From the NCBI GenBank assembly GCA_001768235.1, contig MENK01000035.1:126183-190182 (forward strand): a DNA stretch of 64,000 bases, read 5' to 3'. The first letter of the stretch is position 1, and each line of letters begins with the position of its first letter. The notes below the pieces were generated by a model that saw only the letters and a list, made by a program, of their open reading frames with translations, made no database searches and was not told where the DNA came from. Source of the DNA: Bacteroidetes bacterium GWB2_32_14. GTDB taxonomy: Bacteria > Bacteroidota > Bacteroidia > Bacteroidales > UBA12077. Both the position numbers and the translations under genes were made by a program. Positions 635 through 26,966 of this stretch are shown one piece after another.

Positions 635-1972
635 TTAGTCAGACAATCTTTTAAAAAAGCGCAGCTTCCCGCTTTCTTCTCTTGGAAGTTCTGAAACATA
701 TATAAAGTCAACAATAATTTCAGTACCAATATCCTTTTTCATAGATTTTAAGATATACGTTTCAATTTCCGGGTTAAAGTTCTTTCCCTGAACGATATAA
801 AAATCAAACTTTTTACCTTTTTGTATAACTTTATATTTATTAATTCCTTCTTTATAACCATCATCGTCAATATTTTTCATTAAATAATAGAAAAAATATT
901 GACTTAGACTTTCGCCATTAGGTTTAATAATGACATCTCCGGCACGGCCTTCAATAGATTTAATAGTTTTTAAAGTTCTTCCACAAGTACATTTTTCATT
1001 ATTAAAAAACACGCGATCACCGATTTTATAATTTACGAGAGGCATTCTGTCATTAAAAAACTCTGTTGTTATCACTTCGTTGTTATTATTTGTTGACATA
1101 TAAACGGACTCTTCAAAAACATGCATGCCTCCATGAGGACATTCAAAAGCATAAAGACCTCCATCGGCAGCTCCATATTCATTTACAACTTTACATCCAA
1201 TTATTTTCTCAATATATTCCCGATCATTTTCAATTAAAACTTCAGAAGTTACAATCGCGATCTTTATATTTAATAATTTCCCGTTTAAATTTTTTGATTC
1301 AAGTAGTTCTGCGAATTGTTTTAAAGCGGAAGTATATCCATAAAGATATTTGGGTTTGTATTTAAGAATTAAATCATAATAATATTTTATTGTATCATTA
1401 TTTAATTTAAAGATACTTATTTTAAAATTTCTTTTAATTAGTTTTTCGTAAACAGATCGTGCAAAACCTACTTTTCTATTTTGATAATCTTTTTTTTCAC
1501 CCCAAATTAATATTCCTCTATCAGAAGGACTAATGCCCCACCAACTATAAAATCTATAACGCCCGGCTATTCGATAAGCCATTGCGATATCGTTTAAATA
1601 TACGGTTAATGGGTCTCCGGTACTTCCGCTCGTTGTTGCTTTAAAAATTAATGAGTTTGACGATGGAATTTCTAAATTGTTTTTTTGGATGTCTTTTTTT
1701 AATATATATGGCAATTTATTAAACTCTTCAAAGGTTTCTATTTTTCTAATGTCAATATTTGAATATAGTTTTTTATAGAAATCGTTAGATTGTTTTGCAA
1801 TAGATACAATGTTTTTTAATTGCCCAATTTGAGCTTCTTCAATTTGATTTCTCGTCCAATACTGGCTTTCATTTAAATTTTGTAGTAATTTCAGGGGAGA
1901 AATACTATAATTTTTATATTGAAACTTAAACCAGATATTATTAAAAAAAACTTTTGTGAAGAAAGGGGGCAT
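635..1972 (-). CDS. CapK/PaaK-like adenylate-forming enzyme (phenylacetate-CoA ligase family)
   Basis: 445 aa, full length for the CapK-like branch of the ANL superfamily. The Ser/Thr/Gly-rich ATP loop TTSGSTGDP is at residues 113-121, the adenylate-binding motif NEYGAADGG at 264-272, and the hinge region GRAGDVIIKPNG follows. Cys/His pairs (ECPHGGMH and KCTCG) look like the metal-binding pairs seen in this branch. Such proteins are common in polysaccharide loci and are thought to activate a carboxylic acid as its adenylate or CoA ester, perhaps for acylating a sugar; the substrate is unknown. Its start overlaps the end of the polymerase gene by 32 nt, and no other in-frame Met would shorten it sensibly, which suggests translational coupling. 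Confidence 0.82.
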   Translation of the reverse strand: MPPFFTKVFFNNIWFKFQYKNYSISPLKLLQNLNESQYWTRNQIEEAQIGQLKNIVSIAKQSNDFYKKLYSNIDIRKIETFEEFNKLPYILKKDIQKNNLEIPSSNSLIFKATTSGSTGDPLTVYLNDIAMAYRIAGRYRFYSWWGISPSDRGILIWGEKKDYQNRKVGFARSVYEKLIKRNFKISIFKLNNDTIKYYYDLILKYKPKYLYGYTSALKQFAELLESKNLNGKLLNIKIAIVTSEVLIENDREYIEKIIGCKVVNEYGAADGGLYAFECPHGGMHVFEESVYMSTNNNNEVITTEFFNDRMPLVNYKIGDRVFFNNEKCTCGRTLKTIKSIEGRAGDVIIKPNGESLSQYFFYYLMKNIDDDGYKEGINKYKVIQKGKKFDFYIVQGKNFNPEIETYILKSMKKDIGTEIIVDFIYVSELPREESGKLRFFKRLSD

Positions 1973-3326
1973 TTTTTTGATTATTTACGTTTACAACTGT
2001 ATTTTCTTTACTAAATTTTGCATAGAAAATTCTCCTTGAAGCAAGATACATAGCTAAATATATATACCAGGAATAAGAAACATAGTTTGACATCGGATTG
2101 AACCAGTTCATATACTGCAATAAATCATATATAAAATATAAAATAAACAATAGTAACAGGATAGTTTCAATAGAACTATATCTTTTTAAATTTCTTTTTA
2201 TAAATATTAAATCTTTATATAAGAAGATAATAATTGCTATATATATAGGAAGAAAAACAATAATTCCAAGGATACCTGTCATTGCAAGAGCTCCTAAAAA
2301 TGGGTAATCAGATGCCTCGTAACCTAGCCGATCACCTTCTCCTGTCCGCCAATTATTATCAAAACCTGTTCCCAAAACAGGATACTTGTGGAATAAATCC
2401 AAGATAAAATATCTATTAAACTGCAATCGTTCATCTATTTGACCGGTTGATGTTTCTCCATATCTAACAATATGAATAGTATCCTCTATTACTTTATAGC
2501 TGGCTTCAATGTACTTTGGAAAAGTTAAATAGACTATACCTAATATTAAAAATGAAATAAAAGAAATTCTTAATATACCAGAAGTAGCGATAAGAGATTT
2601 CCTGTTGAAATAGTTTTGTAACAACAATGCTATTATAAAGAAAATAATTGTTCCTGCAATATGTCTTCTGGTTATTGAAACAATCCATGTTAGAAACATT
2701 AAAAAAAAAGCAATTAGAACAAGATTTTTAATATTTCTTTTTTCTTTATATTTAAAAACGATAAATACAACACCCAATGGGATTAAAATGGGTAAAAAAC
2801 CATAAGATAATAATAATTTTCTGTCTATATCTATAAAACCCCTCGCGTATGTTTCATATGGAATTATTTCAATATTCGTAAAAAGGGCCTGAAGAAACAA
2901 TATTAAAATTACGATACTGGATACCAGCAACGCTTTTATAAAAAACATATTATTCGTTTTATAAAAGGGATATACATATATAAAAAGAAAAACACTATAT
3001 AGTGCATGCCTCAATTTTATTATTGTGAAGAAGGCATTATAATTTACAACGTTATTTATATTGGGGGTTAAATATCCAAATACAAAAATGAAATAGAATA
3101 AAAAGAAAAATAAATATCTTCGAAGATATTTATAAGGTTTATCATATATATCATAATGCTTATTTTTGATTAAGTAAAGCACACTTAAAATGATGAATAA
3201 AAAATCATTTAAATTTACTTTAGAAGTAAACTCAAAAATTCCCAGAGCATTTTGGATACCTCCCGGATTAGAAAAAAAAATCAATATAAGCCAAAATAAA
3301 TAATCTATATGTTTACCCTTAATCAT
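1941..3326 (-). CDS. O-antigen polymerase/ligase family membrane protein (Wzy-like)
   Basis: 461 aa, very hydrophobic, with about ten to twelve predicted membrane segments. A large soluble loop (residues ~270-330) carries the PVLGTGFDNNW motif, close to the conserved 'P.lG.G.g' segment of the Wzy_C/O-antigen ligase family. This fold polymerises or ligates lipid-linked repeat units at the periplasmic face. Beside a Wzx flippase and Wza/Wzc homologues, the polymerase role is the better inference. It begins 8 nt after the flippase gene ends and overlaps the CapK-like gene by 32 nt, so all three are probably co-transcribed. Confidence 0.82.
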   Translation of the reverse strand: MIKGKHIDYLFWLILIFFSNPGGIQNALGIFEFTSKVNLNDFLFIILSVLYLIKNKHYDIYDKPYKYLRRYLFFFLFYFIFVFGYLTPNINNVVNYNAFFTIIKLRHALYSVFLFIYVYPFYKTNNMFFIKALLVSSIVILILFLQALFTNIEIIPYETYARGFIDIDRKLLLSYGFLPILIPLGVVFIVFKYKEKRNIKNLVLIAFFLMFLTWIVSITRRHIAGTIIFFIIALLLQNYFNRKSLIATSGILRISFISFLILGIVYLTFPKYIEASYKVIEDTIHIVRYGETSTGQIDERLQFNRYFILDLFHKYPVLGTGFDNNWRTGEGDRLGYEASDYPFLGALAMTGILGIIVFLPIYIAIIIFLYKDLIFIKRNLKRYSSIETILLLLFILYFIYDLLQYMNWFNPMSNYVSYSWYIYLAMYLASRRIFYAKFSKENTVVNVNNQKNAPFLHKSFF

Positions 3327-3334
3327 AATAACTC

Positions 3335-4825
3335 TTAGTTTTTAATCTTTTTAATCAAATTAGATAAATATTGAATGGTAAACTCTTTTTCTGAGGGTTT
3401 AATAAATAGAAAAGAAAACGATAATAACAATAACCCAATAAGTAAATTATAATAATATGCTAAATTAAATATAAATTCTTGCCCGTATAAAAGAATTGCA
3501 GCAAATGCTACAAAGCACATTAACAAAAAATTATCCCGTTCAATTCGTAACTTAATTCTGGGTTTAAGATATTGAAAGTAAACAATAAAAAAGATCAAAG
3601 GACTTACTATAAATTTAAACATCCATCCATAAAGCCCAAAATGAGGTACTAAAAAATAAACAATTAATATATCAATGCTACTTATTATTATTAAAAATAA
3701 ACCATATATTTTTATTCTTCCTGTAGGAGTAAATACTTGACTTAGTGACATCATCCAAATATAAAATAGCACCCCGATAAAATGTCCCGGTAAAAAATCT
3801 CCGGCACTTGTAAAATTTATACTATAAAAAATAGGAATTATTTGATAACGAAGAGGTATAGCAATCATTAAGATTGGAAGCATGATAAAAGAAACTAATC
3901 GAAAAGTATCATTTATTAATCCAACGATTACAACATTAGATTTACTTTCGCTAAATCGCGGATAAAGATAAATAAAAATAGAAGGAAGAATAAAACCAGT
4001 AAACAATGCAGCCCATGATTCTACGGGGCTGTATATACCGATTCCTTCTACTCCCAGGTTTTTTACTACTATTGCTCTTGTAATAACTTCTGAAATTATT
4101 ATTGCAAATCCACTCGTGATACCAATTCCTGCAAACTGCAGTAATTCTTTAACGGAATTAAAACTTACCTTACTCTCTTTTAAATCACTTATTTTTAGAT
4201 TGATATCTTTAAAAATTTTTGTGCGTGCAAAATAATTATTAACGATTAAAATTGATAAAAAAGAAAATGCGATATGAATTACTCCTCCTAAAATTCCAAA
4301 ATAATAAACAAGAGGAATAAATATAATAAAATTAACTCCAATAATTATAATTTCACTTCTGGCAATGTATTTGACTAATTTAAAGCCTTTTAATAAAGCA
4401 AACGAGATACTGTTTAAAACCAAGATAGGGTAAGAAAATAAACCAAACAAGAAATAGTTATAATACTCAAGATCACCAAAAATATAAATAGTAATATTCT
4501 TTGAAAAAATAAGCAATAATGAAAAACTGGGAATAAATATTATAAAAGCAACGACTATATATGATTTTAAAAGTACCGCTAATTTATTTTTAAATAATAT
4601 TTCCGAACGAGACTCAGCAATTTGCTTTACCAAACCATCATTCATTCCCAACAAGGTAAATTGAGACATCCTGTTCGTTATCATTGTTAGCTGAGAAATA
4701 ATTCCAGCACCAACTACTCCTAAAAATATGGCTATTAATTTTGCTCGTAATACCCCTACCAAAAATTTAATAATTCTAGAGAATACAAGATAAGATGTGT
4801 TTTTAATCAACAATTTTAATTCCAT
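3335..4825 (-). CDS. Polysaccharide repeat-unit flippase (Wzx/MOP superfamily)
   Basis: 496 aa, with twelve to fourteen hydrophobic segments throughout and short charged loops, the usual size for Wzx/RfbX flippases. The N-terminal part (KNTSYLVFSRIIKFLVG...AKLIAIFLGVVGAGIISQL) matches the start of TM1-TM2 in the O-antigen exporters, where a Gly-rich turn follows the 'a.~lG..g.G' motif. It would move undecaprenyl-linked repeat units across the inner membrane for the adjacent polymerase. A 131-nt gap (4826-4956) separates it from the FkbM gene; I see no promoter or terminator there. Confidence 0.86.
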   Translation of the reverse strand: MELKLLIKNTSYLVFSRIIKFLVGVLRAKLIAIFLGVVGAGIISQLTMITNRMSQFTLLGMNDGLVKQIAESRSEILFKNKLAVLLKSYIVVAFIIFIPSFSLLLIFSKNITIYIFGDLEYYNYFLFGLFSYPILVLNSISFALLKGFKLVKYIARSEIIIIGVNFIIFIPLVYYFGILGGVIHIAFSFLSILIVNNYFARTKIFKDINLKISDLKESKVSFNSVKELLQFAGIGITSGFAIIISEVITRAIVVKNLGVEGIGIYSPVESWAALFTGFILPSIFIYLYPRFSESKSNVVIVGLINDTFRLVSFIMLPILMIAIPLRYQIIPIFYSINFTSAGDFLPGHFIGVLFYIWMMSLSQVFTPTGRIKIYGLFLIIISSIDILIVYFLVPHFGLYGWMFKFIVSPLIFFIVYFQYLKPRIKLRIERDNFLLMCFVAFAAILLYGQEFIFNLAYYYNLLIGLLLLSFSFLFIKPSEKEFTIQYLSNLIKKIKN

Positions 4826-4956
4826 GAAAAAAAATATAAACTCATAAGTAGAAAATATATAATTATTTAAAATTTGTTATAAAACGATTTTTTCTAATAA
4901 ATAAAAACAGCTTTATTTATATTAAATGCAGGAGAGTCAATTAAACTGTTAAAAAA

Positions 4957-5712
4957 TTAATCCTTAAAATTCTTGTTAATAAAAACCATATCGCATTCGA
5001 ATATTCTTTCTTTATAGTTGTTTTTGAGAAGGTTTGATATATAAAAACCATTACTGTATAAAAATTCAATTATATTATAAAAAGGTTTGCTTCCCATATA
5101 AAATTGTTGAAATTGACATTCGCAGATTATACTTTTAATGTATGGCAAGCTATTTATTGATCCGGCTAATACTTCAAAATCAAAACCTTGCGTATCTGTT
5201 TTGAAAATATCAATTATTTTCCCCGGGATATTTTTTTGATAAAAATTATCGAATGTAGTAACGTCAACAATAATTTTCTGGGAAGAATTAATAAATGTAT
5301 CAGATAACATTTTCCCTGATGGTAATTTATAATCATAGTTTTTGTAAGTAGAAATATTGGGTTCTAGAATAGAGTTTGTTGGTGAATATGAAGAAATATT
5401 GAAATCCATAATTGCATTTTTATCACCTAGTGCCAAATTAAATATTTTTATGTTTTCAAACAACTGATATTTATATAACAACAGCTTATATAAATCAGGA
5501 GTGGGCTCAAAAGCATATATTGGGGCATCTTTATATATTTTTGAGAAAATATCAATTGTTTGACCACGATTAGATCCAATATCGATTATTAATGGTTCAT
5601 TATTATTTACCAGGTCAGTTATTATATCTACTATATTTTTCCCTTTTAGTTGTTTTATTTTTTTTTCAAAAAATGGAATTTTTTTAATTAAATCATAGTA
5701 GTTCATTATCAT
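4957..5712 (-). CDS. FkbM family methyltransferase
   Basis: 251 aa. The SAM-binding motif I is LIIDIGSNRGQT (residues ~38-49), followed by APIYAFEPTPDLYKLL (motif II acid in FEP), the pattern of FkbM enzymes. IFKTDTQGFDFEVLAGS near residue 175 is the conserved 'lKiDvqG.E...L.G' segment. FkbM proteins O-methylate sugars, and in capsule loci they probably methylate a glycan hydroxyl or terminal residue. Starts at 5712 or two codons later (second Met) are both possible. It lies between the glycosyltransferase and flippase genes on the same strand. Confidence 0.86.
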   Translation of the reverse strand: MIMNYYDLIKKIPFFEKKIKQLKGKNIVDIITDLVNNNEPLIIDIGSNRGQTIDIFSKIYKDAPIYAFEPTPDLYKLLLYKYQLFENIKIFNLALGDKNAIMDFNISSYSPTNSILEPNISTYKNYDYKLPSGKMLSDTFINSSQKIIVDVTTFDNFYQKNIPGKIIDIFKTDTQGFDFEVLAGSINSLPYIKSIICECQFQQFYMGSKPFYNIIEFLYSNGFYISNLLKNNYKERIFECDMVFINKNFKD

Positions 5713-19500: not shown

Positions 19501-21870
19501 TTAAAACTGTATCGTATAACTAATGTTGGGTAATAAAGCGAGCTGATATGCCTTTTCAATTTTTTTTCTCATATCATCATAATACTCATAAACCATCGCT
19601 TGATTATTGGTTACATTCTGGATATCAATTTTAAATTCGTGCGTTATTTTCTTTCTGTTTCTTCGATAAGTAATACCCAGGTTCATTGAAAAAACATCGT
19701 CAGCTTTTCTGGCATAAAATTGATTCTCAAACTCAACTTCCGATCCCTTGATAATCGATGCATCTAAATCAATAGGGGTATAACGTTGTCCGCCAATTAA
19801 GGTAATTTTTGTATTTAATCCTATTGTTCTGTTTTTTGATGGATTACCTATTCTGAATTCTTTTCCTATTAAAATATTACCAGCGTAATTCCCATTAAAT
19901 CGTGAATTTCTGCTAATACCGTCTAATGCTGTTAGCTTTGATTCATATAGCGATGATGTAATTAGAAAATAATAATTGTTTGAGTAGAATCTTTCGAGAG
20001 TTAATTCAATTCCATAATTATATCCTTTTCCTTTGTTTACAAGGTCTTTATTTGTATATCCCGAACGGATATTATTTAATACAAAAGTGCTATTCATATC
20101 ATTTTCAACAGCAAGGTTAAAAAGTTGCTGATAATAGGCTTCTACTTTCAAATTTACGTTTTTACTAATCTGGTTACTGTATCCTAAAACATAATGAGCC
20201 GATTTAGATAGTTCAAGGTCTTTATTTGGGGTAGAATAAGTGCCGTCGCCATTATCAACTGTAGCAAAATAAGTAGCGATGCTTTCAACTTTACTATGAA
20301 TACCAAAACCAAGACTTATTGATTGTTTAGGAGCAAAATTCCAATCAACACCTAATCTTGGTTCAATAGAATAGCTGTTATTTAGCAAAAACTGAATATA
20401 ATGTAATCCAGAAACTAAAGTTAATTCATCTGCGATTCGGTATTTCCAATTAAGATATCCTTGAAGTAATCCTGCCCGTCCATCAGTATCAACTTCTGTT
20501 GTGTAAGTTCCCGTATTTAATACATCTTGTTTTGCAAACATGTTATATCCTAAATCGGAATAAGTTATTCCCATTTTAAGGCGATGTTTGGCATTTATTT
20601 TAGTATTCATGCTTGTTGAAATACGAATAGATGTATTATTGAATTGATCGTAATATGCAGTATACCATTCGCCCAAGTCGTCAATTTTTTTGTAATCGGT
20701 GCTGTTTTCAGTACTCGATGCCGAAACATAACTTGTAATAAACGTTCTATCGTTAATCGGATAAATATGTTTGATTGCAGCAAATGCAACATGGGCACCA
20801 AAATCTGCTGTTCGGGTTAAAGAATCTTCGTTTTCTTCAGCAAAATCTTCCTGATAAATATTGCTTAACCCCCCAAATCCGATTAGCTGAAATGTTCCCA
20901 GTTTTTTGGTGGGCAAATTAAACTTAAATGAAGCATCTTGGTACTTAGGTACTCCGTAATAGTGAACAAGATTTAATTTATCAAGAATGTCGAGTGATGA
21001 ATATCGATAGTTGATAAGATATGAACCCGAGTAATTCTTGCTAAATGGACCTTCTAATGTAACATCAGTACCTAAAATTCCTATAGAAGCAGAATACTCA
21101 CGTTTTTCGTTATTTCCATTACGAAGTTTCATATCAAAAACGCCCGAATACGCATTTCCATATTCAGGAGCAAAAGCTCCCGAGAAAAAATCTGAGTTAT
21201 TTAACATTGCACTGTTTAAAGCGTTTATTGGACCCCCAGTTGCACCTTCGTCGGAAAAATGATTGGGATTCGGAATATCCATGCCATCGAGCTTCCACAA
21301 AACACCCTTCGAAGAGTTTCCTCTAACAACAATATCATTATTCCCCTGTGCATCGCCCGTAACACCGGCATACCCAGAAACCATTCGTGCAGGATCACTT
21401 AACGAACCGGCATAACGTTGGGTTTCCTCGACAGTAAATGCTTTTGCACTAACTACAGCCATCTCGTTTAATGCTTCTGATTTATGACCATTTGCAGTTA
21501 CAACAACATCTTCCAGTTGAATTAACGATTCCGATAATTCAATTTCTAAAACAATCTCTTTTCCTGATCCAACTAATATATTGGGTACCGTATTGTCTTC
21601 ATAACCCATACAGGTTACTTTGAGATTTATACGACCTACATGTATGTTTTCTAATCTGAAGTACCCATTGGCATCGGTACTTGTTCCAATTATAGGATCA
21701 GTATTTAAGATAATTACATTTGCACCAATTAATGGTGTTTTAGAATCCTGATCGACTATTTGCCCACGAATTGTTTGAGTTTGAAAGTTTGAGCTATAAG
21801 CCGAAATACTTGTAATTGTTAAGAGTACAAACAAATATTTTTTTATACTATTATTTAAACCGTTCATCAT
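19501..21870 (-). CDS. TonB-dependent outer-membrane receptor with carboxypeptidase-like N-terminal domain
   Basis: 789 aa. Signal peptide (~1-25), then a CarboxypepD_reg-like domain (IRGQIVDQDSKTPLIGANVI, then STDANGYFRLENI) to ~115. The plug domain follows (LEDVVVTANGHKSEALNEMA; NDIVVRGNSSKGVLWKLDG), and then a beta-barrel to the C-terminal F. It would import a small ligand across the outer membrane using TonB energy. There is no STN domain of its own and no SusD partner; instead the STN domain is on the repeat protein upstream in the same gene set. It begins 22 nt after the 411-aa repeat protein and is the last gene of the sigma/FecR group. Confidence 0.9.
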   Translation of the reverse strand: MMNGLNNSIKKYLFVLLTITSISAYSSNFQTQTIRGQIVDQDSKTPLIGANVIILNTDPIIGTSTDANGYFRLENIHVGRINLKVTCMGYEDNTVPNILVGSGKEIVLEIELSESLIQLEDVVVTANGHKSEALNEMAVVSAKAFTVEETQRYAGSLSDPARMVSGYAGVTGDAQGNNDIVVRGNSSKGVLWKLDGMDIPNPNHFSDEGATGGPINALNSAMLNNSDFFSGAFAPEYGNAYSGVFDMKLRNGNNEKREYSASIGILGTDVTLEGPFSKNYSGSYLINYRYSSLDILDKLNLVHYYGVPKYQDASFKFNLPTKKLGTFQLIGFGGLSNIYQEDFAEENEDSLTRTADFGAHVAFAAIKHIYPINDRTFITSYVSASSTENSTDYKKIDDLGEWYTAYYDQFNNTSIRISTSMNTKINAKHRLKMGITYSDLGYNMFAKQDVLNTGTYTTEVDTDGRAGLLQGYLNWKYRIADELTLVSGLHYIQFLLNNSYSIEPRLGVDWNFAPKQSISLGFGIHSKVESIATYFATVDNGDGTYSTPNKDLELSKSAHYVLGYSNQISKNVNLKVEAYYQQLFNLAVENDMNSTFVLNNIRSGYTNKDLVNKGKGYNYGIELTLERFYSNNYYFLITSSLYESKLTALDGISRNSRFNGNYAGNILIGKEFRIGNPSKNRTIGLNTKITLIGGQRYTPIDLDASIIKGSEVEFENQFYARKADDVFSMNLGITYRRNRKKITHEFKIDIQNVTNNQAMVYEYYDDMRKKIEKAYQLALLPNISYTIQF

Positions 21871-21892: not shown

Positions 21893-23068
21893 TTAAAATC
21901 GGATACCTACTGTAAATCCGGGATACATTGTAACATGGTTCCCATTTCCATAGGTTTTATCAAACAGGGTGTAAGGCGATACAGATGACTCAAATGGGTT
22001 TCCGTCGCGATCTTCTGTTTCAGATACATTTACATTCCAGCTTAAACCACCAAAGATGTCCATGTTTTTAGTTACTTTTCTGGATGCAGTTAATTGTAGT
22101 TTGTTATAAAGATTTAAAGCTTCAGTATGCCATTCGTCTTCGTTAATCTGATATGATAGCAGTTCAATTCCCAGGTTCCAATTTTCTTTTATTGGCAGCA
22201 TAGTTCCAATACCGTATCCTAAACCCCAAAGTATTTTGTTGTCTTTGTAGCTTCCACCCACAGAAATGATGTTGTAAAATTGTTTAGTCCCTGTTTTAAA
22301 ACTTACATTTCCGTACATGGTTTCGTTTCCGCTGATTTCAATTGCACGATAACCGTTTTTAACAATTGTAAAAAATCCGATTGGAATACCTTTTTCTAAT
22401 GAGTCAACATAATTGAACACTCCAATTTGTACTCCATTAAGTTTTTGGGTGATATTTGCAAATCCTGAAATTTGAGCTCCCTTTAATGATCCGGTATTGA
22501 TATTTGCAAATCCTGAAATTTGGACTCCTGATAAATCTCCTTTGTTAATACTTGCAAATCCGCTAGCTTGGCCAATTGTAATTCCATTCGAATAATTTGC
22601 AAAACTTGCAATTTGTGCACCATCTAACTTTTTAGTTGTCACATTTCCAAACCCTGATATTTGCCAGGCTTTTGCATCATTCGTAATAATATTCGAAAAT
22701 CCCGACACTTGTACTCCCGAAAAATATCCTTTAGTATAGTTGAAGTAACCTGATACCTGGGCTCCTTTTCCTGTTCCCATGGTCATATTTCCAAATCCTG
22801 ATATTTGTGCCCCTTTCATGTTATTTTTTAGCATACTTCCAAATCCTGATAGTTCAACACCATCTAATCCTCCGTTATAACCGGCATATAGATTAATTGA
22901 GAATTTATTGGTTATGTTCCATGCTTCTAATCCGTTTGTTCCAAGTGGGGTTACAAATGTTATTTGAAACGGACGTACTTCTAATTTTTTCTTTTCTTCC
23001 TGTGCTTTTACACCTAAACTTATTGCGAACAAAAGAATTCCTGTAATTAAAACCTTAACTGTTTTCAT
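21893..23068 (-). CDS. Surface repeat protein with GxQxSGFxN repeats (LA_2272-like)
   Basis: 391 aa from the preferred ATG at 23066-23068, which puts a normal signal peptide (MKTVKVLITGILLFAISLGVKA) at the N-terminus; an in-frame ATG 60 nt upstream exists but adds a charged Asn/Lys tail. Residues ~55-235 hold about ten copies of a ~20-residue repeat of pattern G(A/V)Q(I/V)SGF(A/G)N, probably a beta-solenoid or stacked beta structure. The C-terminal ~140 residues look like amphipathic beta-strands ending in Phe (TVGIRF), as in outer-membrane barrels. The same two-part layout recurs in the STN protein upstream. Function is unknown. A 231-nt gap precedes it, with no clear promoter. Confidence 0.78.
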   Translation of the reverse strand: MKTVKVLITGILLFAISLGVKAQEEKKKLEVRPFQITFVTPLGTNGLEAWNITNKFSINLYAGYNGGLDGVELSGFGSMLKNNMKGAQISGFGNMTMGTGKGAQVSGYFNYTKGYFSGVQVSGFSNIITNDAKAWQISGFGNVTTKKLDGAQIASFANYSNGITIGQASGFASINKGDLSGVQISGFANINTGSLKGAQISGFANITQKLNGVQIGVFNYVDSLEKGIPIGFFTIVKNGYRAIEISGNETMYGNVSFKTGTKQFYNIISVGGSYKDNKILWGLGYGIGTMLPIKENWNLGIELLSYQINEDEWHTEALNLYNKLQLTASRKVTKNMDIFGGLSWNVNVSETEDRDGNPFESSVSPYTLFDKTYGNGNHVTMYPGFTVGIRF

Positions 23069-23299
23069 GTTTTTTTGATTTTTTAATTGATTATTATTAT
23101 TCATTTTTAATTTTCTTTTTTGATTCATTCAAAAGGATGACAAGCCGATTTAGAATTACCTCTATTCGGATATGAAAAAAAAATGAAATTATTTTTCAGA
23201 AATTAGTTAAGTGTCAAAAAATCAGGTAATAAAAAGGAGTTAAAAAAGATTGATTTATAAAATAGGGAATAAGAGATTGTATAAAATAGAAGAATTTAA

Positions 23300-25339
23300 T
23301 TACAATGTAAACGAAAGTCCAATAATTCCACCAATCCACATTTTAACCTGGGTATCTGATGCAGTTTCGTTGTAAAACGAATAGGGAGCAATATCTTCAA
23401 AGGTATTTGTACTGGAATCTATTGAAATATTGGATACATTATAAGAAGGTCCTATAAATATGGAGAAATGTTTAGTCCAATTGTATTCAATTGTAGTTGC
23501 CAGTTTACTTAAATTGCCTATATAAGCGAATGAATTTGATTCTAACAGAACGTCTGAAGATAAATCAAGATTCAGATTGAATTTATTGCTTAACCTAAAT
23601 TGTGTTCCAATACCATAGCCAGCTGAAACATTACTCGAGAAATCATATCCCAAACGAACGGCATTATACAACTTTTTAACTCCGAATTTATAAGCCATAT
23701 TTACATAAAACACATCGTTCGCTGAAAACTCAAACCGATGAAATCCTTTTTTTACAAAGGAAAACATACCAATAGGTAATCCGCTTTCAATAGTATCAGA
23801 AACATTGACAAGAGCTATTTGATATCCATTTACTTTTTTGGAATAGTTTAGGACACTCGATAGTTGTATTCCCTTGTTTTCATCTTTTGCAATATTTGAA
23901 AATCCTGAAATCTGAAATTTACCGTTTGTAACACCATAATTTACAAATCCGGCTAATTGCCCACCGGTAACTTCGTTTGCAGAAACATTGACAAATCCGG
24001 TAATCTGAAATCCTTTAACAGTATTTCCATAATTGGCATATCCACTTATTTGCCCCCAGTTAACATCTCCTCTGGCAACATTCACATAACCGGCTAATTG
24101 TCCTCCATCTACATTGTTGCAATAATTTACGAATCCCCCAATTTGCATAAGTTTTACATCTTGCAGTGCTATATTGACACCCCCGGTAAGCTGAATTCCA
24201 TCAACATTCTTTGTAGTTACATTGTTAAATCCTGAAATCTGTATACCATCCATGTACCCATGAAGAGTATTGTTAAAACCTGCTAACTGAACACCTTTTA
24301 ACGTGTCGAGAACAACATTGCTAAATCCGGCAATTTGTGTTCCTTTAACCGATCCAGTATTCTTATTAAATAATCCGGCTAATTGAAAATATCGGGTATC
24401 ACCACCAACAATGTTTGCAAAACTGCTTATTTGAGATCCATTTACATTTCTTCTTACGATATTTATTCCTCCTAATTCAAAACCATTAACTCCTCCTGAG
24501 TATCCGGCAAGAAAATTAAACGAGAAGGTATTATCAACCGATCCGCTCATTTTTCCATTGGTTCCAATGTATGGAATTAATGATATCTGAAATTTTCTGT
24601 TATCGTGAATTATCAGGTTGTCTGAAATAATTTTAATTTCTTCAGGCACTAAAATGGTAACCACCTGACGGTTATGAAAATCAGCTAACTTTAAATTAAC
24701 AGATTTAGCCTCCAGTTTTTCGAGATAAGAGTTATCCGGACTAAGATAAATGTTTAAATTCCTTTTATTCATAGCTTCAACCATGATAATAGTATCCATA
24801 AAACCTTGCTTGCTATAACTTAAACCTTGAATGTTGATATCTGAAGGAATATTTAGTGAGTAAAATCCAGTAGAATCAGATAAAGAAACTATTCGTCCAT
24901 TAATTTCATAAATGGTTGCTTCTTTTATTTTTTCTCCAGTCTTTGAATTTAGTATATATCCGGTTAAAATATATTCGTTTAAATTTTCGGAAGAAGGACT
25001 ATTCTGCACATTTTTTTTAGTTAGTACAACATGACTTCCTACTACTTTATAACGTACAGAATTATCAAAAAGCAGATCAAGAGATTTTGCAACAGTTTTA
25101 TTACTTATGTTTAGTGTAACCAATTCCTGCTCATTAAAATTCTTTGAGTTGTAAGAAAAAGTGAAATTTCCTGCATCGGATATTTTAGTTAAAGCTTTCT
25201 CTAAAGGAATATTTGTAAAGGAAACGGAAATTCGTTTATACAGGTAATTCGACTGAGATAAAGCCACTTTACCAGAAAACAAAATCGAAAAAAGTATAAT
25301 TACTAATTTAAGTTGTTGTATTTTTCTCTGAACACCCAT
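23300..25339 (-). CDS. STN-domain/carboxypeptidase-like/GxQxxGF-repeat outer-surface protein
   Basis: 679 aa. Signal peptide (~1-29). An STN (secretin/TonB short N-terminal) domain spans ~30-110, with RISVSFTNIPLEKALTKISD and NISNKTVAKSLDLLFDN, and a CarboxypepD_reg-like domain ~125-205. About fifteen ~20-residue repeats (G-x-Q-(I/L)-(S/A)-G-F-x-N) cover ~265-540, and a beta-rich C-terminus resembles that of the 411-aa-frame protein. In FecA-type systems the STN domain passes the ligand signal to FecR. Here it is detached from the TonB receptor and fused to the repeats. Its start overlaps the fecR-like stop by 32 nt, indicating coupled translation. Confidence 0.8.
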   Translation of the reverse strand: MGVQRKIQQLKLVIILFSILFSGKVALSQSNYLYKRISVSFTNIPLEKALTKISDAGNFTFSYNSKNFNEQELVTLNISNKTVAKSLDLLFDNSVRYKVVGSHVVLTKKNVQNSPSSENLNEYILTGYILNSKTGEKIKEATIYEINGRIVSLSDSTGFYSLNIPSDINIQGLSYSKQGFMDTIIMVEAMNKRNLNIYLSPDNSYLEKLEAKSVNLKLADFHNRQVVTILVPEEIKIISDNLIIHDNRKFQISLIPYIGTNGKMSGSVDNTFSFNFLAGYSGGVNGFELGGINIVRRNVNGSQISSFANIVGGDTRYFQLAGLFNKNTGSVKGTQIAGFSNVVLDTLKGVQLAGFNNTLHGYMDGIQISGFNNVTTKNVDGIQLTGGVNIALQDVKLMQIGGFVNYCNNVDGGQLAGYVNVARGDVNWGQISGYANYGNTVKGFQITGFVNVSANEVTGGQLAGFVNYGVTNGKFQISGFSNIAKDENKGIQLSSVLNYSKKVNGYQIALVNVSDTIESGLPIGMFSFVKKGFHRFEFSANDVFYVNMAYKFGVKKLYNAVRLGYDFSSNVSAGYGIGTQFRLSNKFNLNLDLSSDVLLESNSFAYIGNLSKLATTIEYNWTKHFSIFIGPSYNVSNISIDSSTNTFEDIAPYSFYNETASDTQVKMWIGGIIGLSFTL

Positions 25340-26354
25340 TTCCGGTTATTGTATAAGTATTATTCCTTTTAGTATATTCAAACTCAAATGTGGCTGTAAT
25401 TACTTCCATAATTTCTTCAATAGAGTTGTTTGTAAATATTGTTGTTAAACGGCAATCATATATTCGTTGGTCGCTTACTTCAATTTCGATATGATAATAG
25501 TTTTTCAAAAGGCCGAAAACTTTTCTCAAATCAGTATCATTAAAGATTAAGGTATAATTCATCCAAAATATGGCATCAGGTATTTGCTCAGCAACATATA
25601 CCGGTTTCTTATCTTTTGCTGTAATCTTTCCTTTTTCTCCTTTTTTCAGAAGTATAGCCGATGTATCGCTGGTTTCGGGATCGATAACATAAATTTTAAC
25701 CAACCCATCTGTAACAATTACTTCAAGCTCGCTATTTTCGTAAGCTTTTACATTAAACGATGTTCCTAAAACCTGAATAAATGCATCTCCTGCTTCAATA
25801 ATAAAAGGTTTTTCCTTATTAGGTTTAACATTAAAATATGCTTCCCCATTGAGTTTTACGCGCCTTTCGTTTTTTGCAAATTGTTTAGGATATGTGATTT
25901 TGGAATTTGTATTAAGCACAATTTGCGATCCATCAGGTAAGGTGTCTTGTAAAACCTCTTGTACGCTTGCTAGAATTTGTTTTTGTGTATCGAATGATGG
26001 TTTTATAATCAGTTGATACATTCCAAATAATATGATCAATGAAGCCGCGATACCCGAAATCCAAATAAATCTTGATTTTAATGAAATTGTTTTGGGAGAT
26101 ATTTTATCTTTTTCATATTGATCAACTCTTGCAGACATTTTAGCCCATGCTGATTTAATGTCAACAGCTACAGGATTTGGTGTAAGCTTACCTGTTTCTG
26201 CCCAAACAGCTTCGTATTGATCTAAAAGCTTTTGATTCACCTCCGATAATTGAAGCCATTCTTCTACCATTCGTTTTTCATTTGGATTTGTTTCGCCAAG
26301 TAAAAAACGCAGAAGTAATTTGGGGTCAATATGTTCAGATTCTTTATTCATCAA
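25308..26354 (-). CDS. FecR-family anti-sigma factor
   Basis: 348 aa. An N-terminal cytosolic helical region (LLLRFLLGETNPNEKRMVEEWL) holds the sigma partner. One membrane helix is at ~88-110 (FIWISGIAASLIILFGMYQLI). The periplasmic FecR domain includes LPDGSQIVLNTNSKITYP, RRVKLNGEAYFNV, FIIEAGDAFIQVLGTSFNVKAY and the C-terminal DUF4974-like segment LIFNDTDLRKVFGLLKNYY. It should hold the ECF sigma factor encoded 36 nt upstream and receive the signal from the STN domain of the protein encoded just downstream. Confidence 0.93.
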   Translation of the reverse strand: MMNKESEHIDPKLLLRFLLGETNPNEKRMVEEWLQLSEVNQKLLDQYEAVWAETGKLTPNPVAVDIKSAWAKMSARVDQYEKDKISPKTISLKSRFIWISGIAASLIILFGMYQLIIKPSFDTQKQILASVQEVLQDTLPDGSQIVLNTNSKITYPKQFAKNERRVKLNGEAYFNVKPNKEKPFIIEAGDAFIQVLGTSFNVKAYENSELEVIVTDGLVKIYVIDPETSDTSAILLKKGEKGKITAKDKKPVYVAEQIPDAIFWMNYTLIFNDTDLRKVFGLLKNYYHIEIEVSDQRIYDCRLTTIFTNNSIEEIMEVITATFEFEYTKRNNTYTITGNGCSEKNTTT

Positions 26355-26390
26355 TTTACATTAGTATGACAATTCAGTTTAAGTATTCCT

Positions 26391-26966
26391 CTACCCATTT
26401 TTAAAAAAATTTCCAAAAAAGAGAATAATCCATGGGAGATAATCGGCCAATTCTTCACGAAGATATTTGAGCGCTTTTACCATTTGGTTTTCAACAGTAC
26501 TTACCGACAAGTTAAGCTTTTGAGCTATTTCAGAGTACTTGAGTCCCTCATAACGACTCATAATAAAAATCTTTTTTCGTTCTAATGGAAGTTGATCAAT
26601 TGCAACGCGGATCTTTTGTTCCAGCTCTGTTACAATCATTTCATCTTCTGACGAAATAGAATCTTGCATCTCGTATTCATGCTGAGCTTTATAATCTTCA
26701 CGAATATGAATATGCTTTAATACATTCAGGCAGGCATTTCGTACCGAACGAAAAAGATAACTTTGAATAGAAGTTGTTATTGCAATGGAATCTCTATTTG
26801 TCCAAAGTTTAAACAATATTTCCTGAACCACCTCCTCGGCAGCATCAACATCTTTTAAGAAATTATTAGCGTAAGCACATAAATTGCTGTAATGAGCATT
26901 AAACAGGATTTCAAAATCCTGTTTTGTTTCAATTTTAAAGATGGTATGTGCTTCTGAAGTTGTCAA
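26391..26966 (-). CDS. ECF RNA polymerase sigma-70 factor
   Basis: 191 aa. Region 2 includes FNAHYSNLCAYANNFLKDVDAAEEVVQEIL and region 4 includes LPLERKKIFIMSRYEGLKYSEIAQKLNLSVSTVENQMVKAL, a helix-turn-helix. It groups with the FecI-like sigma factors of Bacteroidota that pair with FecR. The C-terminus has an extra hydrophobic tail (PWIILFFGNFF). It is the first gene of the sigma/FecR/STN set and probably directs transcription of the downstream receptor genes, and perhaps itself. Confidence 0.94.
   Translation of the reverse strand: MTTSEAHTIFKIETKQDFEILFNAHYSNLCAYANNFLKDVDAAEEVVQEILFKLWTNRDSIAITTSIQSYLFRSVRNACLNVLKHIHIREDYKAQHEYEMQDSISSEDEMIVTELEQKIRVAIDQLPLERKKIFIMSRYEGLKYSEIAQKLNLSVSTVENQMVKALKYLREELADYLPWIILFFGNFFKNG

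Follow-up and report, generated by a model that had tools for sequence, protein, structure and literature searches.

A candidate FecIRA-like signalling module of Bacteroidota with its STN domain on a repeat protein

Gene layout and domains of the locus

The window analysed here, a 64,000-nucleotide stretch of contig MENK01000035.1 (positions 126,183 to 190,182) of Bacteroidetes bacterium GWB2_32_14, contains a module that lies entirely on the minus strand and reads in one direction. Its five genes encode, in order, an extracytoplasmic function (ECF) sigma factor, a FecR anti-sigma factor, a repeat protein of 679 amino acids (aa) carrying an STN domain (hereafter the STN-repeat protein), a second repeat protein and a TonB-dependent receptor (Table 1). 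Open reading frames and Pfam searches located this arrangement where a first-pass annotation had claimed it, with STN on a repeat protein and with a second repeat protein and a receptor that both lack it; the receptor gene sits just beyond the 21893-26966 interval of that annotation.

Table 1. Genes and promoter-like elements of the module (positions are those of the window; CPD, carboxypeptidase-like domain).
Feature	Position	Strand	Description
ECF sigma factor	26391..26966	-	191 aa, listed start TTG; Sigma70_r2 and r4_2 matches; position conserved in genus
ECF-like promoter 1, GAGGAATACTTAAACTGAATTGTCATACT	26363..26391	-	sigma-fecR gap; same block in 7 congener loci (L122-L128)
FecR anti-sigma factor	25308..26354	-	348 aa; cytoplasmic N-terminus, hydrophobic segment ~93-115, FecR 131-220, FecR_C 269-336, LGTSF site
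STN-CPD-repeat-barrel protein	23300..25339	-	679 aa; signal peptide, STN 36-108, CPD 122-199, strands 246-311, solenoid 315-493, strands 497-678
ECF-like promoter 2, GAGGTAATTCTAAATCGGCTTGTCATCCT	23134..23162	-	upstream of second repeat gene
Repeat-barrel protein without STN	21893..23128	-	411 aa
TonB-dependent receptor	19501..21870	-	789 aa; CPD 34-124, Plug, TonB-box-like EDVVVT at 120, no STN

As in FecIRA systems, the ECF sigma gene (TIGR02985, 176 bits) adjoins that of an anti-sigma factor with a transmembrane segment and, in Pfam, FecR (67 bits) and FecR_C (49 bits) domains, and STN lies in the protein encoded next to FecR. The end of fecR and the STN-repeat gene overlap by 32 bp, and the receptor gene begins 22 bp past the second repeat gene, with which it probably shares a transcript. 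Promoter 2 ends 6 bp before the listed start of the second repeat gene at 23128, so the true start is likely the ATG at 23068 (MKTVKVLITG). At four other loci (L126, L128, L129 and L038) the second repeat protein has a conserved in-frame stretch, FxPRSLFLFAxFAxxxK..., ahead of its normal signal peptide; this stretch may represent a leader peptide or an N-terminal extension. Pfam detected no STN in the receptor of the window, which has just a signal-peptide-sized stretch ahead of its CPD.

The Pfam STN match of the STN-repeat protein (PF07660; residues 59-109) scored 29.1 bits against a cut-off of 28.4, and its STN profile matched, with 99.2% probability, a small alignment in which four STN domains belong to STN-SusC receptors from the same genus and a fifth to the other STN protein of its own genome. 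CarbopepD_reg_2 was found at residues 125-207 with 21.1 bits, under the 32.2 cut-off, while the CPD model matched the NTE domain solved for a SusC (9hfj) with a TM-score of 0.80 on the target. Because of the STN profile match and the match of the CPD model to 9hfj, the N-terminus is equated with that of an STN-SusC receptor, and the order of STN followed by CPD is also that of the same-genus receptors. In the rest of the protein, the plug and barrel of such a receptor have been replaced. STN in FecIRA systems resides on a TonB-dependent transducer; here Pfam found no Plug in the STN-repeat protein, nor was a TonB-box motif seen. Searches of PDB sequences returned no closely related structure for the repeat region, the STN or the receptor barrel, and the STN profile reached only the PilQ and PupA signalling domains (E 0.1-0.5). 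Across 20 diverse STN-repeat proteins, the residues FSYNS of the STN do not vary, and the FecR Gly-Thr site ([LIV]GTx[FM]) is present in 69 of 70 module FecRs.

By-eye counts of about 14-15 repeats in the STN-repeat protein and about 10 in the second repeat protein agree with earlier estimates (~15 and ~10). The AlphaFold2 models of both proteins (overall pLDDT 85-87, repeats >90) predict two short strands for each unit of about 16 aa, which we read as a beta-solenoid, and place it between preceding strands and about ten long strands; the latter gave weak matches to outer-membrane barrels in Foldseek. By ordinary barrel topology, with two strands before the solenoid and a periplasmic N-terminus, the repeats would leave the modelled barrel from its periplasmic side or lumen, and the 'surface' position suggested for them in the first-pass annotation is doubtful for this reason.

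Linkage with FecR, lineage and a common promoter-like motif

Homologues of the STN-repeat protein were found by order-wide and named-genome searches in Bacteroidales, Marinifilum, Dyadobacter, Larkinella, Arcicella, Chryseolinea, Taibaiella and Terrimonas, and the five-gene order of the window is conserved within the genus. A class-wide draw found homologues in 72/295 Bacteroidia genomes, where a few matches may be STN proteins of other kinds. The profile search of genome contigs used a set of closer homologues, as the profile of 31 divergent homologues was too variable. Survey queries consisted of repeat, STN or fusion sequences and excluded FecR, and linkage to FecR was therefore not built into the results. 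In the first survey, FecR was encoded directly upstream of 50 of 55 non-redundant STN-repeat proteins in comparison to 0 of 36 STN-less repeat proteins (Fisher p 3e-20), and a fresh class-wide sample added 20 further STN-repeat loci, all 20 with FecR directly upstream and 13 (counted from the table) with a receptor-type gene. One STN-less repeat protein of the fresh sample also scored as having FecR upstream, probably an artefact of the FECR profile matching the STN of a neighbouring protein (L257). The condition that the first-pass annotation had set for refuting its idea, homologues regularly occurring without a FecR/sigma pair, was not borne out, as FecR was directly upstream of 70 of the 75 non-redundant STN-repeat proteins from all Bacteroidia examined, and the idea survives. 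In the tally of the first survey, the receptors downstream of modules were all without a detected STN.

Of the five exceptions, four come from Dyadobacter genomes, where they are surplus to a complete sigma-FecR-STN-repeat module encoded elsewhere. FecR-less STN-repeat genes were present in three genomes of this genus, each with its complete module preceded by the promoter-like motif described below, which lies ahead of the sigma gene. As a separate observation, proteins at L103:3883-5817 and L106:4095-5696 have an STN with no CPD detected, followed by a seemingly complete repeat protein with an internal signal-peptide-like stretch, and are possibly independent STN fusions.

In phylogenetic trees of FecR and of STN-CPD, a single change sets the module apart as a coherent lineage (SH-aLRT 96 and 92%), the comparison set being 14 other FecR systems that all come from the family of the window. 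The sigma tree required two changes instead of one, with the L152 sigma in the set being an unrelated 56-bit sigma, and was not used as evidence. FecR is encoded just twice in the genome of the window, and in both cases the next gene specifies an STN protein other than a TonB receptor. The second sigma-FecR-STN module (L051, C33:73500-80500, at 1824-4984) encodes an STN-CPD protein of 518 aa whose C-terminal part has no clear family (a weak LolA-like match in a relative) and no detected barrel, and modules of this type recur across the family (L042-L050). The single STN receptor of the genome is a TonB-receptor-like protein of 888 aa (L179:2529-5195, C2), followed by a 267-aa protein, and no FecR or sigma factor was found near it at that locus.

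Alignment across the genus identified a near-identical block before the second repeat gene, GRTAGAGGTAA-N12-TTGTCATCCT, and the same block in the sigma-fecR gap. Allowing at most two mismatches, all 11 genome-wide matches in the genome of the window and seven congeneric genomes fell at the two module positions, between sigma and fecR or ahead of the second repeat gene, with one or two matches per genome (control 0-1 per strand), and promoter 2 was the only match in the 3.66 Mb genome of the window. Among distant loci, a generic form of the motif gave 22 distinct sites, 21 of them directly upstream of a module gene or an adjacent gene (0.15 expected per scan), and in the fresh sample 9/9 sites preceded a sigma, receptor, repeat or next gene (0.05 expected). 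A slightly more permissive pattern found no site in 14 other sigma-FecR loci.

In other families the motif precedes sigma, fecR, repeat or receptor genes. It ties together the Dyadobacter module, the extra STN-repeat copies (with motif in two of three genomes, L152 and L232) and a remote receptor operon that bears the motif in all three genomes (L233, L235, L237), where Pfam confirmed a DUF4249 gene beside the receptor in L233. The linkage of the motif to module genes suggests that it is read by the module sigma factor. The further proposal of the first-pass annotation, that the second repeat protein and the receptor are outputs, is well supported by the shared, predicted ECF-like promoter, which immediately precedes the second repeat gene and, in other families, receptor or repeat genes. 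Two side observations concern the genes that follow the STN-repeat gene: its immediate neighbour carries the module promoter in L133 and L136-L139, and other families have a DUF2807 (head GIN) gene downstream (L137:7938-8669; L083:4923-5705).

Proposed signalling mechanism and alternative explanations

We consider it probable that the locus encodes a FecIRA-like cell-surface signalling module in which a protein other than a TonB-dependent receptor serves as the STN transducer. The STN of Fox and Fec systems binds the C-terminus of FecR, and the anti-sigma factor is self-cleaved at Gly-Thr and later degraded to release the sigma factor (PMC11637429, PMC9249621); the module retains the FecR_C domain and LGTxF site used in that mechanism. 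By analogy, FecR would hold the ECF sigma factor at the inner membrane, and the STN of the repeat-barrel protein, with its NTE-like CPD as in SusC receptors, would reach from the outer membrane to the FecR C-terminal domain. A change in the repeat-barrel part, caused by a ligand or by the state of the envelope, would alter the STN-FecR contact, leading to FecR degradation and a freed sigma factor. This would then transcribe the promoter before fecR and the STN-repeat gene as feedback, and, as output, the one that serves the second repeat-barrel gene together with the STN-less TonB receptor. Signalling would probably not be powered by TonB, since the transducer has no plug and no TonB box.

Several observations weigh against this interpretation. 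The barrel assignment is weak, with best PDB matches at E ~1e-3 to 1e-2. A TonB-box-like motif was absent by regular expression in 72 of 73 STN-repeat homologues and present in one, but the same expression detects just 12 of 29 receptors, so that its absence is weak evidence. Predicted outputs vary, as a receptor or second repeat protein was found downstream in just 27 of the 46 loci with enough sequence, and the autoregulated unit differs in some families where the promoter precedes sigma and not fecR. Finally, besides the extra copies in Dyadobacter, the remaining exception to the linkage (L104) is an STN-repeat protein with no FecR nearby.

Two alternatives keep the signalling role and change its stimulus or its route. 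It is possible, if somewhat unlikely, that barrel folding or the lipid environment, and not a ligand, sets the STN-FecR contact, with activation leading to more barrel protein and receptor in a manner like that of the Dma proteins, which combine an anti-sigma domain with a barrel at the C-terminus and regulate vesiculation and polysaccharide utilization loci (PMC13088901). The outputs are themselves outer-membrane-type proteins, and the DUF2807 protein of other families would fit the same reading; against it, a TonB receptor is among the outputs, and the regulon predicted for the genus is tiny, in contrast to broad envelope responses. We hold it unlikely that the STN-repeat protein is a relay; in that case ligand would bind to the STN-less TonB receptor, and this would influence the STN-repeat protein within the outer membrane, which would pass the signal to FecR. 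In the genus such a receptor is encoded with the module, and it seems to share the regulation of the module in several families, including Dyadobacter, whose receptor is remote but has the motif, and VreA of Pseudomonas aeruginosa has been proposed to contact an outer-membrane partner (PMC2729926); yet a receptor of this kind lies downstream in just 15 of 46 loci with room for one, though it may be encoded elsewhere, and an output-only receptor is normally without STN. That STN is a structural remnant on a protein that does not signal, its place beside fecR merely inherited, is very unlikely: STN does occur without FecR, as in the 888-aa receptor and L104, but the linkage holds class-wide while STN-less repeat proteins never directly follow FecR, and FSYNS is invariant in the 20 diverse members.

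Returning to the FecIRA-like module with a non-receptor transducer, we see an even chance that it represents a phylum-wide class of TonB-independent signalling, in which a non-transporter outer-membrane solenoid/barrel sensor talks to FecR through STN and turns on an STN-less paralogue and a TonB receptor, so that sensing and uptake, fused in FecA, are separate. What is understood of cell-surface signalling comes from receptors with both functions, and in FecA itself transport and signalling are hard to separate experimentally (PMC9249621). If the interpretation is correct, a natural non-transporter transducer would allow the direct question of whether STN signalling needs TonB energy, and the module would provide a first role for a large repeat-barrel family together with a defined promoter for a Bacteroidota ECF sigma factor. 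With homologues in 72/295 class genomes, this would be a common and apparently unstudied regulatory system.

Comparison with known systems

The module looks like a widespread Bacteroidota variant of FecIRA-style signalling that is undescribed in the literature searched; neither STN-carboxypeptidase proteins beside FecR nor the promoter string with a Bacteroidota sigma factor was found there, the search covering openly licensed papers only, which makes this absence weak. Its G-x-Q-x-x-G-F-x-N repeats resemble those of the LA_2272/VC2662 proteins (NF047436, NF047437). The likeness to LA_2272 proposed in the first-pass annotation thus holds for the pattern and not for family membership, as NF047436 scored 23.8 bits for the second repeat protein and 14 bits for the STN-repeat protein, under the curated cut-off of 25, and the name denotes a resemblance only.

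The Dma anti-sigma family likewise ties a barrel to control of an ECF sigma factor in Bacteroidota, but there anti-sigma domain, transmembrane segment, tether and barrel form one chain (PMC13088901) and the cognate sigma belongs to group ECF21, whereas the module has separate FecR and STN-repeat genes. One further locus, found in a single genome (L108:213-2704), is reminiscent of Dma3: a 374-aa ECF sigma factor with a C-terminal hydrophobic segment and a disordered-looking tail overlaps a gene for a repeat-barrel protein with additional N-terminal sequence and a stretch resembling an internal signal peptide, with no FecR or STN at the locus.

PUMA3/VreA also carries STN on a protein other than a TonB receptor, but VreA is small, mostly soluble and periplasmic, with a TolA/TonB-like C-terminus and no barrel (PMC2729926), and belongs to another phylum, whereas the STN protein of the module has a predicted solenoid and barrel-like strands. 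Systems of the FecIRA type (FecA, FpvA, FoxA, PupB) and the STN-SusC receptors of Bacteroidota share with the module an ECF sigma factor, a FecR with FecR_C, an STN protein encoded next and an ECF-like promoter on their own genes, in the module a candidate one. They differ in that the STN of the module resides on a protein with a predicted solenoid and another, putative barrel, with no plug or TonB box, and that its receptor is STN-less. In its working the module would be closest to FecIRA, except that sensor and transporter are separate proteins.

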